A stretch of DNA of 42,821 nt from Candidatus Zixiibacteriota bacterium (lineage in GTDB: Bacteria > Zixibacteria > MSB-5A5 > UBA10806): contig CP070742.1 in assembly GCA_020348065.1 (NCBI GenBank), positions 3,481,193 to 3,524,013 on the forward strand, written 5' to 3'. Position numbers and translations under genes: made by a program. This document shows positions 17,677-23,719 of the stretch, piece by piece; the first letter of the stretch is position 1; each line of letters starts with the position of its first letter. The notes below the pieces were generated by a model. It was not told the DNA's origin, ran no database searches, and saw only the letters and a program-made list of their open reading frames with translations.

Positions 17677-19632
17677 CTATGATCCGTTTTTAGGACCGTT
17701 TGTTGTGTGTGTTGAAAGCCTGGTCTCTGCGAACTGCAAAATCAAATCGATCATTTTTTCGTATGATAATCCTTCGATATCCGCCATTTTCGCGAGATGG
17801 CCGTCCCAACACCAGCCGGGATTAGGATTTACCTCCAGCAGTCTGGGATTGCCGGCGGCATCCAGTCTCCAGTCGAATCTGCAGTAATCCCTGCATTCCA
17901 GCCTCTCGGATAAATTTAGACAGCATTCCACAATCACCTTTTCCAGGCTATCCGTAAGATCCGCCGGAACCGATTTTATTTTCCAGTAAGGAGAATCGGG
18001 CATCCATTTGGCCTCGTACCCGCATATTTTAGGGAGATCATCCGGGAGGGCGGAATAATCCTCCTCGATTATCGGAAGAACCTTATACGATTCGGGCGGA
18101 TTTCCTATTATTCCGACGCTTAAATCTTTGCCGGTGAGGAACTCTTCCACCAGGATCGGTTTTTCATAACCGAATTTATCCCTGATTCCGGAAATAGCGT
18201 TGATCAAATCTTCAATATTGTTCGCAACGCTGTTTTGCGTTATGCCAAAGCTGGAATCGCCGAAATTCGGTTTGACAATTACCGGAAAACCGAAAGGGAG
18301 CTCGAAAGTAGTGTCCTCCGGCTTGATAAAGAAAGCCTCTGGAATCGGTATATTCATCTCCTTGGCAATTCCCCTGACCAGAGATTTGTCATAGCAATAG
18401 GCCAGACACTGCGGTCCCGATCCCGTATACGGCATGCCGATCATTTCCAACAGTGATGGTACATGAAGCTCTTTCCTGGAATCGTTATTAAAACCCTCGT
18501 CGCACAGGTTGAAAATATAGTCTATTTTACCCTTTAATCCGCTCAATTCCTGAATAAATGTATCATGATTATTCAGGTAGATAAATTTATAATCCTTTTT
18601 CTCATGGAGGGCTGCTTTCAGCCTGTCGATGGTGTAAAGGTCGTCCTCGTCAAAACGCGATTGAGGTTTTATAGGATCGGGCTTGGCGGGATCGCCGAGA
18701 AGAACGGCTATCGTCTTGACGATCTCTCTGGGTTTTCTTTTTACCGGGGTCCACTCTTTTTTGGCTACCGCCGTGGCCAGCAGCCGAATTTTCATCATTC
18801 CCAGATCCTGGTCTCTCTTGGAATCGGGAATAAGTTCCCCGTGAAATTTGATATTGCTGAATCCGGACTGGTCAATGAGCTTATTGAGACTGTCTTTTGT
18901 ATATAGCCTTTCGGCGTAAAATTGGTCGGCCAGAACCCCTTTTTCGACATGGGTTATTACTTCGCGCGATATCAATCGATTTCTATCGGCGGCAAGAGAA
19001 CGTTCCCTGCATACGAAATACTTCTTATCAACCCATTCCCATGATCTCGGCTCGAAATGCTCGCGCAGATATTCTCCGTCGGCGACGTCTATAAGCAGCT
19101 GCCCCCAGGGTTTTAATACCCTGAAAACCTCTTCGAGGACTCGGCGGTCTTCGTGCGGAGTTTCAAAATAACCAAAACTATTCCCCAGAATCAGAACGTA
19201 ATCAAAAGAATCCGGGGAACTGGGGATTTTCCTGGCGTCACCCTCCCGCAGCTTGACATTCAAAGATTCCTTTTTCGCCCGGGATTTGGCTTTCTGTATC
19301 AAATAATGGGATCGATCGAGACCCTCGACATTCTCAAATCCTCGCCTGGCCAGTTCGAGTGTATGGCGTCCCTGCCCGCAGGCCAGATCCAGTATACGGT
19401 GTTGAGGTGAGAGATTAAGAATGCTGATTATTAGATCGATTTCCCGGTATGTTATGTCCTGATCATCCACCACGTCAGCATCGGTTTTGAGATAGAGATA
19501 ATTGAAAATATTCCTCCACCAATCCGATCGAACATACCGTTCCAGATCGGAAACCGGCCCCAGTATCTTCGTCGTTGATTTTCCTTTTTTGGCGAAAACC
19601 ATGGTTTTCTTCTTGGATGGGTCGTTTTTCAT
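17677..19632 (-). CDS. fusion of SAM-dependent methyltransferase and D-Ala-D-Ala-ligase-like ATP-grasp enzyme
   Basis: 651 residues from ATG 19632, chosen because GGGGAG lies upstream and a predicted promoter sits inside the longer reading frame. Residues ~65-290 are a class I methyltransferase: LDLACGQGRH (81-90), acidic EGLD, and DYVLILGNSFGYF. Residues ~305-640 are an ATP-grasp domain like D-Ala-D-Ala ligase: MPYTGSG (400-406), VIVKPNFGDSSFG (451-463), ILVEEFLTGKDLSVG, and the metal-binding RLLEVNPNPGW (597-607). Both active sites look intact. The product is unknown. ATP-grasp enzymes of this type join a carboxylate to an amine, so a methylated amide or dipeptide is plausible. The gene lies after the ABC exporter genes but has its own promoter. 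Confidence 0.85.
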   Translation of the reverse strand: MKNDPSKKKTMVFAKKGKSTTKILGPVSDLERYVRSDWWRNIFNYLYLKTDADVVDDQDITYREIDLIISILNLSPQHRILDLACGQGRHTLELARRGFENVEGLDRSHYLIQKAKSRAKKESLNVKLREGDARKIPSSPDSFDYVLILGNSFGYFETPHEDRRVLEEVFRVLKPWGQLLIDVADGEYLREHFEPRSWEWVDKKYFVCRERSLAADRNRLISREVITHVEKGVLADQFYAERLYTKDSLNKLIDQSGFSNIKFHGELIPDSKRDQDLGMMKIRLLATAVAKKEWTPVKRKPREIVKTIAVLLGDPAKPDPIKPQSRFDEDDLYTIDRLKAALHEKKDYKFIYLNNHDTFIQELSGLKGKIDYIFNLCDEGFNNDSRKELHVPSLLEMIGMPYTGSGPQCLAYCYDKSLVRGIAKEMNIPIPEAFFIKPEDTTFELPFGFPVIVKPNFGDSSFGITQNSVANNIEDLINAISGIRDKFGYEKPILVEEFLTGKDLSVGIIGNPPESYKVLPIIEEDYSALPDDLPKICGYEAKWMPDSPYWKIKSVPADLTDSLEKVIVECCLNLSERLECRDYCRFDWRLDAAGNPRLLEVNPNPGWCWDGHLAKMADIEGLSYEKMIDLILQFAETRLSTHTTNGPKNGS

Positions 19633-19689
19633 GTTTCCGTTCTCCCCGCGATGCAGGCCTGAAAGGATTTTCCTAATTATAACCGCCCG

Positions 19690-19717
19690 ATTATAACTCC
19701 GAAAATCAAAAAAGCAA
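19690..19717 (-). promoter_or_regulatory. predicted promoter of the methyltransferase/ATP-grasp gene
   Basis: Minus strand TTGCTT (19717-19712), 16-nt spacer, TATAAT (19695-19690), with a second TATAAT-like box ~12 nt further on. The -35 lies just after a CCCAAA...TTTGGG hairpin bounded by T-runs on both strands, which may be a second, bidirectional terminator. The leader is about 50 nt. Confidence 0.55.
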
Positions 19718-19786
19718 CCCAAATATTCATATTTTGGGGACTTTTTTTGATCATCCGGGAAGTTCGGATTTTTCAGCGTTTGACAG

Positions 19787-19817
19787 AAAAAAAGCGGCCG
19801 GAAATGATCCGCCCGCT
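19787..19817 (-). terminator. intrinsic terminator after the ABC exporter genes
   Basis: On the minus strand the arms AGCGGGCGGA (19817-19808) and TCCGGCCGCT (19802-19793) pair at nine of ten positions around a 5-nt loop, followed by seven T. It lies 26 nt after the stop of the second ABC gene and separates the exporter transcript from the methyltransferase/ATP-grasp gene. Confidence 0.85.
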
Positions 19818-19842
19818 TCATATTCATGCCGCCTGACTTTTC

Positions 19843-21645
19843 TCAGGTAACAGATTCCACTTGTCTCTGAAGGCTGTACCGCCTGTAAAGTTTCGCATAA
19901 TGACCGTCATTCCCCATCAGCTCAAAATGTGTACCGGATTCTATTTTCTTTCCGCCTTCCAGAACGATGATATTATGGGCGGATTCCAGCACATCAGGCC
20001 TGTGAGTAATCAGAATAATGTCCATCCCTGGCATAACCTCGGCAAGCTTCTCCCAGAGCGCGTTTTCGGTATTGGAATCGAGCGCCGAGGTGCAATCGTC
20101 CAGAATCAGGATCTTCGGCTTTTCAACCAGCGCGCGGGCAAGCGCCAATCTCTGTTTTTGACCGCCGGAAATCGACACCCCCCTGGTACCTATTCTGGTA
20201 TAGATACCGTCGGGAAATGTCTCTATTTCATCTTTCAGCTGCGACACCTCGATCGCCCAATCGACATCATATCGGGAAATTCCGGAACGCCCGAAGAGAA
20301 TGTTGTTTTCGACCGTGTCCGAAAACAGGGTAGGTTCCTGGGGCACATACCCGATGATTTTCCTCAATTCCTTAAGTTTATATCGACGGATGTCGTTTCC
20401 ATCGAGCAGAATGCCGCCCTCGGTCGGATCGACATATCTCGGAACCATTGCCGCGATCCAGCTTTTGCCGGCCCCAACCCTGCCCACCAGCGCGACCGTC
20501 TGGCCGGATTTGACCTCGAAGCTAATGTCATCCAACACTTTTCTGCCACCTTCTGAAAATCTCAGGCTCACATTGGAGAAAACAAGGTGCCCGCCTTTAT
20601 CGGCATTATATTTCAGCCTGCCGTTGTCTATCACCATAGGCGGAACCTTCTCGAGCTCGAGTAAACGATTGATCGATACCGCCGATTGCCGTGATTTCAC
20701 CAGGAATCTCCCGATATCGAACATAGGGAATATCAGATAGATTACATAGAATACAAACGCCACCAGCTTTCCCAGTGAGAGATCGGATTTTATAACCATA
20801 AAACCGCCCGCCAGAAGAACAATAATAATCCCGAACTGCCAGATATACATATAGAGCGAATCAATAAATGTGGTTGCTTTTATGGCGGATATCTCGGCAT
20901 CGCGACGGTCTTTTACGGCGCTGTCGAATTTACCTTTCTGGGCTTTCTCCTGAATGTATGCCTTAACCACCCGGATTCCTGAAAAACAAGCCTCCATAAT
21001 ATCGTACAATATCGATATTCTGGTTTGCAGGTAGTCATACCTCCTGTCCAGAATGGTCGCGCTTTTGAAGAATATGAAAATCAGGATCGGAAGTGGCCCG
21101 GCGGTTAAAAGAGTTAGAAGAGGATCTATGGTTAACATCATGGCCAGGGTAAAGCCAATAAATATCAACGCGTCATAGAATCGGAATATGCCGGAACAGG
21201 CAAACCATGAGAGTTTCTCCGCGACATCGTCGGTCATCCTGGTGACCAGATCGCCGATCCTGAATCTGTTAAAAAAATCGGGCCCTTTACAGGTTATATT
21301 GTCGAATGCGGTTTGACGGAAAAGCCACTCCAGCCTCATGTTCATCCAGGCCCGATGCCCCTGTACGAAAGCGTAAATCAGCGACGCGTCAAGCCCCAGA
21401 ATAACGATTAGAATCGCGAATAGCGATGTTGTCGACACGCCTATGCTACTGGCAAAACTATCCAGCCATTTGAATACCGAATATGATGGCAGAACTCCGG
21501 TTTTGGCGTAATCGATGGTAAATTCGATTAATCTGGGTATGGCCACATGAAACGCCGTCTGAATCGGTGTCAGTAACAGAAGAACGGCCAGAACATATTT
21601 GTAGTTACGGTAATATTTCCAGAACCATTTGATCTTATCCCACAT
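19843..21645 (-). CDS. ABC exporter half-transporter with degenerate Walker B (YheI/BmrC-like)
   Basis: 600-residue half-transporter: six membrane helices (1-~310), then a nucleotide-binding domain. Walker A is VGRVGAGKSW, the signature is the canonical ISGGQKQRLALARAL, and Walker B is ILILDDCTSALD (~512-523). The catalytic Glu is replaced by Asp (DD instead of DE), as in the degenerate site of heterodimeric exporters such as TM287/288 and BmrC. The H-loop His (ITHR) is kept. Its start overlaps the partner gene by 11 nt. The substrate is not predictable; drugs, peptides and lipids are all known for this class. Confidence 0.93.
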   Translation of the reverse strand: MWDKIKWFWKYYRNYKYVLAVLLLLTPIQTAFHVAIPRLIEFTIDYAKTGVLPSYSVFKWLDSFASSIGVSTTSLFAILIVILGLDASLIYAFVQGHRAWMNMRLEWLFRQTAFDNITCKGPDFFNRFRIGDLVTRMTDDVAEKLSWFACSGIFRFYDALIFIGFTLAMMLTIDPLLTLLTAGPLPILIFIFFKSATILDRRYDYLQTRISILYDIMEACFSGIRVVKAYIQEKAQKGKFDSAVKDRRDAEISAIKATTFIDSLYMYIWQFGIIIVLLAGGFMVIKSDLSLGKLVAFVFYVIYLIFPMFDIGRFLVKSRQSAVSINRLLELEKVPPMVIDNGRLKYNADKGGHLVFSNVSLRFSEGGRKVLDDISFEVKSGQTVALVGRVGAGKSWIAAMVPRYVDPTEGGILLDGNDIRRYKLKELRKIIGYVPQEPTLFSDTVENNILFGRSGISRYDVDWAIEVSQLKDEIETFPDGIYTRIGTRGVSISGGQKQRLALARALVEKPKILILDDCTSALDSNTENALWEKLAEVMPGMDIILITHRPDVLESAHNIIVLEGGKKIESGTHFELMGNDGHYAKLYRRYSLQRQVESVT

Positions 21646-23440
21646 TTGCCATCACCCCGTTTTTGAATTGCAGGTGGAAAAGCTTGGAATAATACCCGTT
21701 TTTCAGTATCAATTCCGTATGCGTGCCCCTTTCAATTATCTCTCCCCTTCGGACCACCAGAATCTGGTCTGCCTCCAGAATCGTCGACAGCCGGTGAGCT
21801 ATAATTATCGAGGTTCGCCCGGCCATGAGCTTTTTCATGGAGGCCTGTATTGTCCGTTCGGTTTCCGGGTCAACCGAGCTGGTCGCCTCATCAAGAATTA
21901 GAACGTCAGGGTCGGTTACCAGAGCGCGAGCGAAAGAAAGCAGTTGCCTCTCGCCCCGGCTGAAATTGGCCCCTTTCTCGGAAACTTCCATTTTGTAGCC
22001 GTCGGGCAGTCTTCGGATGAATCTATCGGCGTCTACTATCCTGGCGGCCGAGATGATCTTATCTTCGGAAATATTATTGGCCTCGAGGGAGATGTTGAAT
22101 GCCACGTCCCCCGGAAATAGAAATATATCCTGAAGCACCAGCGAGAATCTTTTTCGCAAATCCTCTTTGGTGATATCCCGGATATCGATACCGTCGACCG
22201 TTATCTTTCCTCTTTGCGGATCATAAAGCCGGAGCAGGAGCGATATTATGGTTGACTTACCTCCGCCGGTCACGCCTGCCAAAGCCACCTGGCTTCCGAC
22301 CGGGACTTCGAAGCTGGCATTTTTCAGCGCGTAATCATCATCGTTGGCGTATGAAAACCATACGTTCTCAAACCTGATACCCTCTTTTAATCCTCTCCAC
22401 TCAACCGGATGTATCGGGTCGGGCAGGCTGCGGTCGCTTGAAAGAAGCGCGAAAATCCGTTTCCCTCCGGCAACCGCCTTCTGGATATGGGATAACTGGC
22501 CCGAGGCGGTGTAGATCGGTTCGAACGATCTCCAGATCAAAACAACGAACATACTGAACGTCCCGACCGTTATATCCCCGGATCTCATCCATTTCATTCC
22601 GAAAAAGAGCACCAGCGCGATCATCAGGTATTCCAGGAAATGGATGGAATTGAAAAACGCCACCACGATAAGTTCCGCCCGCGATTCGGCTTTGAACTTC
22701 AGCCTGTTGACCTCGCTCATCCCTTTTTTTACATGGTCTCCACGATGAAAAATCTGAATGATCGACATTCCATGCAGATACTCGGTCAGCGTAGCCGTAA
22801 CTTCGGCCATTCTCCTTCGTACCGCCAGGAATCGGGGAGAGGTGGTTTTTTCGAATATATATATCAAAACTGCGAAAACAGGAATGAGCGTTGTCAGAAT
22901 GAGGGTCAATTTCCAGCTGTAGTAGAGCATCACGAAAAAGATACCGATGATGAGTATCAGATCGCCCATTAGCATGACTACGGTATTGGTAAACATCATC
23001 CTCAGAGACTCGGTATCCGATTCTATCCGGGCCATGAGCCGTCCAATAGGATTTTTGTCGAAAAAGGAGATGTTGGACATGAGTATATGATCGAAAAGCC
23101 TCTTTTTCAGTTTTACCATGACGTCCTGCCCGATTATCTCCAGCCTGACGGTCTGGATATATCGCAGTATCAACGTAACCGCCTGAATAACGCCGATAAA
23201 AGCCACGGTGAATATAAGCCCCTTGAGATCACCGTTTTTAATATCAACATCCATGGCCTTTTTCATGAGAATCGGCCAGTACAGCGAAAGCAGGGTGGAG
23301 CCGGAAAGAAGCAGCAAGCAGAAGATCAACGGTTTTTTATGCTCTTTGAGCAGGGGAAGCAGTTTGCCGAAAGCCTCTTTCGAGCTCAGATCCCGTTCCC
23401 GGGATGTCATTTTTTCGTCTTCGTAAAATTCGCTTGTCAT
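21635..23440 (-). CDS. ABC exporter half-transporter, partner subunit (YheH/BmrD-like)
   Basis: 601-residue half-transporter with six membrane helices and a nucleotide-binding domain: Walker A AGVTGGGKSTII, non-canonical signature FSRGERQLLSFARAL, intact Walker B VLILDEATSSVD and H-loop IAHRLS. Its altered signature would face the degenerate Walker B of the partner, and its intact Walker B would pair with the partner's normal SGGQ. The dimer would therefore have one active and one degenerate ATP site. First structural gene after the attenuator-like leader; GGAAAT provides a modest Shine-Dalgarno 6 nt before the ATG. Confidence 0.93.
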   Translation of the reverse strand: MTSEFYEDEKMTSRERDLSSKEAFGKLLPLLKEHKKPLIFCLLLLSGSTLLSLYWPILMKKAMDVDIKNGDLKGLIFTVAFIGVIQAVTLILRYIQTVRLEIIGQDVMVKLKKRLFDHILMSNISFFDKNPIGRLMARIESDTESLRMMFTNTVVMLMGDLILIIGIFFVMLYYSWKLTLILTTLIPVFAVLIYIFEKTTSPRFLAVRRRMAEVTATLTEYLHGMSIIQIFHRGDHVKKGMSEVNRLKFKAESRAELIVVAFFNSIHFLEYLMIALVLFFGMKWMRSGDITVGTFSMFVVLIWRSFEPIYTASGQLSHIQKAVAGGKRIFALLSSDRSLPDPIHPVEWRGLKEGIRFENVWFSYANDDDYALKNASFEVPVGSQVALAGVTGGGKSTIISLLLRLYDPQRGKITVDGIDIRDITKEDLRKRFSLVLQDIFLFPGDVAFNISLEANNISEDKIISAARIVDADRFIRRLPDGYKMEVSEKGANFSRGERQLLSFARALVTDPDVLILDEATSSVDPETERTIQASMKKLMAGRTSIIIAHRLSTILEADQILVVRRGEIIERGTHTELILKNGYYSKLFHLQFKNGVMANVG

Positions 23441-23481: not shown

Positions 23482-23516
23482 AAAAAACCCGCCGTGACCA
23501 TCGGTCGCGGCGGGTT
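23482..23516 (-). terminator. strong intrinsic terminator between leader ORF and ABC exporter genes
   Basis: Minus strand: 5' arm AACCCGCCGCGACC (23516-23503), 3-nt loop GAT, 3' arm GGTCACGGCGGGTT (23499-23486); 13 of 14 positions pair and a run of six T follows (23487-23482). It lies 22 nt after the leader ORF stop and 42 nt before the first ABC gene. No other promoter is apparent between, so exporter expression should need readthrough. Confidence 0.9.
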
Positions 23517-23567
23517 GAGTTGCCAGATACAAAAAGTCTACGTAACAAAGACACCTCTCCCGCCGCG
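23506..23567 (-). promoter_or_regulatory. candidate antiterminator pairing
   Basis: CGCGGCGGG at 23567-23559, which is exactly codons 17-19 of the leader ORF, is a perfect 9-nt complement of CCCGCCGCG at 23514-23506, the core of the terminator's 5' arm. Pairing of these two would prevent the terminator from forming. A ribosome reading codons 17-19 would block the pairing, while one paused further upstream would allow it. Confidence 0.7.
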
Positions 23568-23615
23568 GAATACGCAAATCGGCACCAGCTGTGTATTTGA
23601 TAAGGTAATGCTCAT
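23538..23615 (-). CDS. 25-residue leader peptide of the ABC exporter operon
   Basis: ATG at 23615, stop TAG at 23540-23538, 25 residues. It begins MSITLSNTQLVPICVF and continues with RGGRG and VFVT. GGAGG lies 10 nt upstream of the ATG in a ~70-nt leader after a strong promoter. It is followed by an intrinsic terminator and then the exporter genes. The closest known arrangement is Bacillus subtilis bmrB-bmrC-bmrD, where translation of a small leader ORF controls transcription of a heterodimeric exporter. I infer a regulatory leader peptide. A secreted or modified peptide product is a less likely alternative, since there is no obvious leader/core division or repeated core residues. Confidence 0.7.
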   Translation of the reverse strand: MSITLSNTQLVPICVFRGGRGVFVT

Positions 23616-23691
23616 TAAGATGCTTCCTCCGTGCGGTTTAAGTTATCTCATTACGCTTCATTACGGCAGAACTCGCCGAAAAGTTTCGATA

Positions 23692-23719
23692 AATATATCC
23701 ATAATTTCGGCCCCGTCAA
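23692..23719 (-). promoter_or_regulatory. promoter of leader peptide and ABC exporter operon
   Basis: Minus strand TTGACG (23719-23714), 16-nt spacer, TATATT (23697-23692). The transcription start is predicted near 23685, about 70 nt before the leader ORF. It is the only good promoter seen between the outer-membrane protein gene and the exporter genes. Confidence 0.75.

Follow-up and report, generated by a model that had tools for sequence, protein, structure and literature searches.

What decides whether an RNA polymerase that sets out ahead of a short open reading frame (ORF), and then arrives at an intrinsic terminator, will reach the ABC exporter genes lying beyond? The question is raised by a locus in a complete genome (3.74 Mb) of Candidatus Zixiibacteriota, within a stretch of 42,821 nucleotides that was analysed as a whole and that we call the window. 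A first-pass annotation, made from the letters of this stretch, had ascribed it to an FCB-type candidate phylum, which is correct, Candidatus Zixiibacteriota being a member of the FCB group. It had also suggested that translation of the short ORF chooses between a terminator and an antiterminator. On the minus strand the elements follow one another in the order promoter, Shine-Dalgarno (SD) sequence, upstream ORF (uORF) with the first of three RNA arms in it, stop codon, terminator made of arms 2 and 3, and two-gene ABC exporter (Table 1). The promoter, the SD, the 25-codon ORF and the 13/14-bp terminator had all been listed at the places where we find them. For the reasons set out below, we think that the leader is very probably a ribosome-mediated transcription attenuator, in which stalling of a ribosome would turn the pump on.

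Table 1. Features of the leader and of the exporter genes, in positions of the window
Feature	Positions	Strand	Remarks
-35 element TTGACG	23714..23719	-	promoter-like match
-10 element TATATT	23692..23697	-	16-nt spacer from -35; promoter span 23719-23692
CCGC of conserved AACCGY motif	23633..23636	-	5' of SD; weak candidate for an anti-antiterminator strand pairing with arm 1
Shine-Dalgarno GGAGG	23626..23630	-	10 nt 5' of uORF ATG
Leader uORF	23538..23615	-	25 codons + TAG; peptide MSITLSNTQLVPICVFRGGRGVFVT
Pro12 codon CCG	23580..23582	-	recurrent P-x-G motif; computed switching threshold
Arm 1, predicted antiterminator 5' strand, CGCGGCGGG	23559..23567	-	uORF codons 17-19; covaries with arm 2
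uORF stop TAG	23538..23540	-	18 nt 3' of arm 1
Arm 2 CCCGCCGCG	23506..23514	-	predicted to pair with arm 1 or arm 3
Intrinsic terminator	23482..23516	-	stem 23516-23503 / 23499-23486; six T 23487-23482
Exporter subunit 1 (ABC_membrane + ABC_tran)	21635..23440	-	LDEATSS intact, signature FSRGE degenerate
Exporter subunit 2	19843..21645	-	overlaps subunit 1; LDDCTS (LDD for LDE), canonical SGGQ

Arm 2 is part of the 5' strand of the terminator stem and arm 3 is the 3' strand of the same stem, which has 13/14 pairs, a folding energy of -24.2 kcal/mol and a z-score of -5.2. The nine nucleotides of codons 17-19 (CGCGGCGGG) had been described as a perfect complement of CCCGCCGCG (23514-23506), and so they are. 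The duplex between uORF and arm 2 has p = 0.003 against dinucleotide shuffles in the window, the floor of 300 shuffles, and by the same kind of test p < 0.05 in 34 of 45 leaders of orthologs.

What would be gained if the terminator were passed? Judged by its sequence, the exporter is of the heterodimeric type, as the first-pass annotation had it: two adjacent half-transporters with one ATP site degenerate, the marks being FSRGE in subunit 1 and LDD in subunit 2. Its solved relatives, which match the subunits with E-values from 1e-73 to 1e-113, include TmrAB, TM287/288 and BmrCD in the PDB; they are likewise heterodimers among the type IV ABC exporters, and one of their two ATP sites is degenerate. 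For subunit 1, TmrA and TM288 rank above the BmrCD chain; for subunit 2, TmrB comes first among heterodimers and YheI second. The two-part pump is probably a multidrug exporter. It is 88% identical to that of its nearest named relative, Candidatus Zixiibacteriota bin119 (CP070813.1), and the pair is kept in orthologous loci. Sixteen nucleotides past the pair lies a gene (17677-19827) for a methyltransferase domain fused to an ATP-grasp domain of the D-Ala-D-Ala-ligase type. It was considered as a conserved member of the operon and ruled out; a genome of the same genus lacks it there and has rmlA instead.

If the uORF matters, relatives should keep it. Orthologous exporters were gathered by protein homology alone, which gave 49 distinct leaders with a parsed terminator; a uORF was accepted when it ended 15-34 nt before arm 2. 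Such an ORF, ending in fact 19-32 nt 5' of the terminator, is present in 45 of the 49. With the start codon fixed, dinucleotide shuffles yield 4.4 of 45, a figure to be taken as a guide and not as a probability, since the leaders are related and one fixed start was assumed where several are possible. The four exceptions comprise a masked stretch, a uORF with a poor SD, an SD too far upstream for the search and a miscalled terminator. A second set of leaders, found by a covariance model blind to reading frame, has the uORF in 39 of 43 new members. Nearly all orthologous leaders carry an SD-like motif 5' of the uORF, and in-frame stops are absent from its frame while the other two frames contain them at the expected rate. 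The uORF measures 22-33 codons in most leaders, and the distance from arm 1 to the stop is 18 nt in 45 of the 76 that have a recognisable core. The first-pass annotation had named conservation of the ORF as something to look for in relatives; what relatives keep is the architecture, and mostly not the peptide.

Both alternative helices covary. Among 34 leaders, arm 1 and arm 2 are paired at 91.2% of cells (shuffles: 83.9%), and the double-changed cells number 26 where shuffles give 9.9 (0/500 shuffles). When the arms are slid relative to each other only 37-52% of cells pair; these slid controls remove the effect of relatedness among the leaders, which the shuffles do not. The terminator stem (arms 2 and 3) is 95.8% paired in the same leaders, its double changes numbering 20 against 5.7 (0/500). 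Extension to 69 leaders gives 91.4% paired cells and 40 double changes against 15.7 (0/500) for arms 1 and 2, and 98.4% and 32 against 7.4 (0/500) for the terminator stem. The smaller set is the cleaner test because the larger was chosen by a model that itself contains the pairs of arm 1 with arm 2. The compensatory changes in the 9-bp pairing for which the first-pass annotation had proposed to search are thus present in both sets. Cases where three strands change together illustrate this: TGCGACGGG/CCCGTCGCA/CGACGGG, TTAAGCGGG/CCCGCTTAT/AAGCGGG and CGCAATGGG/CCCGTTGCA/CAACGGG. We regard the antiterminator and terminator helices, as predicted from these alignments, as covarying and mutually exclusive structures. 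The AACCGY motif, which RNAalifold pairs with arm 1 and which is a weak candidate at best, gives 87.5% paired cells against 84.3% in shuffles and 7 double changes against 3.4; its slid version also gives 76.5%.

How widespread is this arrangement? Of 132 genomes sampled from the phylum, 81 have a match to the covariance model at E <= 1e-4, nearly always a single one. The genome of the window contains one strong match (68.4 bits), the next scoring 25.5 bits; two further candidate copies in it (L113, L114) were rejected, being without the three-arm layout. The exporter follows directly in 49 of the 56 places fetched from this search, and in two more of them (L192, L194) its N-terminus is visible at a contig end. 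The candidates L144, L145, L146, L150, L201 and L207 turned out to be ordinary terminators or chance matches. For 38 distant exporters (31-40% identity) from other lineages, the 260 nt before the start contain no strong terminator in any case.

Several variants deserve mention in their own right. One genome (G069) has two copies of the exporter, each with its own, differing leader (L166 and L176). In three leaders of family f5 orthologs (L026, L028, L031) a uORF of 26-29 codons is readable with no terminator after it; control may have moved there to translation or to Rho. A number of leaders belong to entries named Candidatus Eisenbacteria or just 'bacterium', and their arms are more divergent. 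Six of the Eisenbacteria type (L052, L053, L058-L061) show a conserved GYGG-like end of the peptide; their 5' regions are longer and may hold a second small ORF.

The first-pass annotation had seen no second promoter before the exporter, and indeed no promoter-like site is present at 23482-23440. Across 45 leaders, a promoter match of at least 10/12 was found between terminator and exporter in none; ahead of the uORF such a match occurs in 27 of them, mostly 70-90 nt before its start. This bears on the simplest alternative, namely that a short ORF happens to precede the ordinary terminator of an upstream transcript and that the exporter has a promoter of its own. Given how frequent short ORFs are and how rich in G+C the arms, some resemblance might arise by chance, but the occurrence in 81 of 132 genomes, the covariation, the constant arrangement and the missing promoter 3' of the terminator make this explanation hardly credible. 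Conversely, the conserved uORF, the covariation of both helices and the lack of a second promoter all support what the first-pass annotation had proposed, ribosome-mediated attenuation through exclusive helices.

A terminator could also be governed by a protein or a ligand, for instance through a CRP-type palindromic operator or a riboswitch, with the uORF incidental. Many leaders (L013, L022 and L023 are examples) do have the palindrome TTGTGA-N6-TCACAA around the stop codon of the uORF. It is, however, absent from the leader of the window, and others, L007 and L016 among them, have a different hairpin in its place. A search of the window against Rfam returned no family at gathering score, the best match below it being Trp_leader with 18.5 bits where 41 are needed, and neither the open frame nor the constant place of the stop would be maintained in an incidental uORF. 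Hence we rate control by a protein or ligand as very improbable. As for a stop-codon hairpin formed by TTGTGA-N6-TCACAA, it was tried as a general element of these leaders and rejected: it is not universal, and its covariation does not rise above that of shuffles except in paired cells (11/500).

If the leader is an attenuator, there should be a point on the uORF at which a ribosome flips it. Exporter leaders were folded with a ribosome mask that hides the P-site codon together with 14 nt to either side. The mean probability of the antiterminator is 0.8-0.97 when the ribosome stands at least 13 codons before the last codon, and it falls below 0.1 at 2-8 codons before it. In the leader of the window the probability drops through 0.77, 0.43 and 0.01 at codons 12-14, that is, from Pro12 to Cys14. 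The first-pass annotation had expected the switch before codon ~15; a threshold does exist, although the footprint mask puts it slightly earlier, at codons 12-14. Once the ribosome has the stop codon in its A site and the last sense codon in its P site, the mask becomes permissive again (mean 0.57), and it is equally so in trp leaders with a ribosome at the stop. A ribosome at this position presumably blocks arm 1 sterically or kinetically; a steric block is suggested because the helix would need to close around the ribosome. With no ribosome at all the mean is 0.76, varying between leaders, and two set-ups of the model give 0.21 and 0.91 for the window.

Put together, the attenuator would most likely work in the following manner. 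The operon would be transcribed from the promoter 5' of the uORF. During unhindered translation the ribosome would be on arm 1, or at the stop 18 nt past it, while arm 2 emerges from the polymerase; with arm 1 barred from arm 2, arm 2 would pair with arm 3 and transcription would end before the exporter genes. If a ribosome were halted no later than about codon 12 (Pro12, in the P-x-G motif), arm 1 would be free, so that the 1:2 antiterminator could form before arm 3 exists and the polymerase would read into the exporter. That translation of the uORF, its coupling to transcription, termination and antitermination take place in this way in the cell is what we infer from the sequences.

The direction of the switch can be checked against leaders with a different purpose. 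Although built from exporter leaders only, the covariance model also retrieved two leaders of trpE (anthranilate synthase) and one aro leader. The trpE leaders, L196 (G104:C126) and L197 (G105:C114), have uORFs with WWWW, MNFSVSHNNIPGSARNWWWWSIPDTGSG and MKFSVSQNCLPVSESAQYWWWWPMSYIGSG. The aro leader (L143/L208, G055:C8:2238-2321) has the uORF MNRFATTADVYYYQYFGLFTQPRAGVNPPH with YYYQYF and precedes a fused or adjacent gene for chorismate mutase, prephenate dehydratase and DAHP synthase. The three-arm layout is the same, and the regulatory codons adjoin arm 1 on its 5' side. In amino-acid attenuators, stalling at the cognate codons turns the genes on. In L196 the mask leaves the antiterminator free while the ribosome stands on its cognate codons, in L208 while it stands on most of these, and in both the antiterminator is lost directly afterwards; for L197 the mask model does not yield a free antiterminator on these codons. 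Sharing the same arms, the trp and aro leaders support the view that a stall before arm 1 would mean ON in the exporter leaders as well.

What, then, would make the ribosome stall? The leader peptide changes quickly in evolution, with a pooled pN/pS of 0.74 in the part before arm 1, and the frame in which arm 1 itself is read differs between leaders (64, 8 and 4 of 76). Nevertheless, of 62 non-redundant peptides 24 have a proline six residues before the arm-1 GG, where 4.0 would be expected (p 0.0005), and all four proline codons are used. Glycine occupies position -4 in 19 of the 62 against 4.5 expected, and a depletion of Asp, Glu and His is confined to the coding frame. Counted from the first codon of arm 1, this proline has an offset of -5, which is that of the last Trp in L196, a trp leader. 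Its counterpart in the window is codon 12, the threshold codon, with Cys instead of Gly two residues on. We propose, as a hypothesis, that P-x-G is a preferred pause site.

Such a proline could also be read as a cognate codon. The leader would then sense shortage of a charged tRNA, e.g. that for proline, and the exporter would serve metabolism instead of drug defence. This has some appeal, with real amino-acid attenuators of the same layout in the phylum and a proline that recurs near the threshold, well above expectation, at the offset of the last regulatory codon of L196. Yet the aligned peptides of the exporter leaders contain no run of cognate codons for any single amino acid, where the trp and aro leaders have at least four; proline stands at -6 in only a minority, and no more than 37 of 62 non-redundant leaders contain one anywhere from -9 to -3. 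What is regulated, moreover, is an exporter, and multidrug transporters are among its closest solved relatives. We consider a sensor of tRNA shortage improbable.

A broader possibility is that any slowing of elongation would suffice, in which case the leader would report translation speed, growth state or stress in general without being tuned to antibiotics. The mostly unconserved peptides would fit this, the uORF, the position of its stop and the arms being what is kept. A P-x-G at a fixed position and the in-frame depletion of Asp, Glu and His, on the other hand, suggest tuning by the nascent peptide, and an element that controls almost only one exporter fits a specific purpose. A general sensor is in our opinion rather unlikely, if worth keeping in mind. 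We lean slightly towards a natural inducer that is a ribosome-targeting compound which the pump removes. More tentatively, and with the odds somewhat against it, one can imagine that an attenuator of the amino-acid type was turned into a sensor of drugs or translation stress, its cognate run replaced by a P-x-G pause at the codon where the structure flips, with the result that ribosomes stalled by a drug would switch on the exporter.

The nearest precedent is bmrB-bmrCD of B. subtilis, to which the first-pass annotation had pointed. Without drug, transcription there stops at a terminator; lincomycin, erythromycin and chloramphenicol induce, and translation of the leader is required (PMC4191407). 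It, too, serves a heterodimeric ABC exporter, and there, too, translation of a leader ORF chooses between terminator and antiterminator. However, bmrB has 53 codons, contains the terminator within its coding sequence and is also under AbrB (PMC4191407), whereas the uORF of Zixiibacteriota is shorter and its stop lies 19-32 nt before the terminator, which is thus outside the uORF. Nor are the exporter subunits orthologous to BmrC and BmrD, which are not even their closest solved relatives. Because length, terminator position and exporter all differ, we place the Zixiibacteriota leader, predicted to work like bmrB, outside the bmrB family.

Other systems share parts of the design. With trp-type attenuators, including L196, L197 and L143/L208, the exporter leaders have in common a short leader peptide, exclusive helices and a predicted ON state upon stalling before arm 1; they differ in having no cognate run, with the threshold proline in a minority only. 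In E. coli, stalling on the uORF toiL serves to sense ribosome-targeting antibiotics of several classes (PMC12121999), but toiL-topAI acts on translation initiation and Rho-dependent termination, where the Zixiibacteriota leader would act on an intrinsic terminator, and the target gene is different. Attenuators of ABC transporters have been predicted in Firmicutes, one of them, in lactobacilli, ahead of a multidrug export operon (PMC2965389). They come from comparative analysis of terminators and likewise concern a multidrug exporter, but they belong to Firmicutes, with no indication of a relation to the Zixiibacteriota sequences. A literature search outside subscription journals found no report joining Zixibacteria with leader peptides or riboswitches, and the RNA family of exporter leaders appears to be unreported. 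The proposed mechanism is one already known from bmrB-bmrCD; what is new is the P-x-G at the modelled switching threshold.

Whatever the inducer is, some 90 natural variants are at hand for comparing arms, spacing and pause codon. If the leaders do work as proposed, transcription and translation in this phylum would have to be coupled closely enough for attenuation, which is a prediction about its cell biology. Control of drug exporters by the ribosome is best documented in Firmicutes (PMC4191407). The same logic in an uncultured phylum of the FCB group, beside trp and aro attenuators, suggests that sensing by coupled transcription and translation either arose independently or has a wide ancestry.
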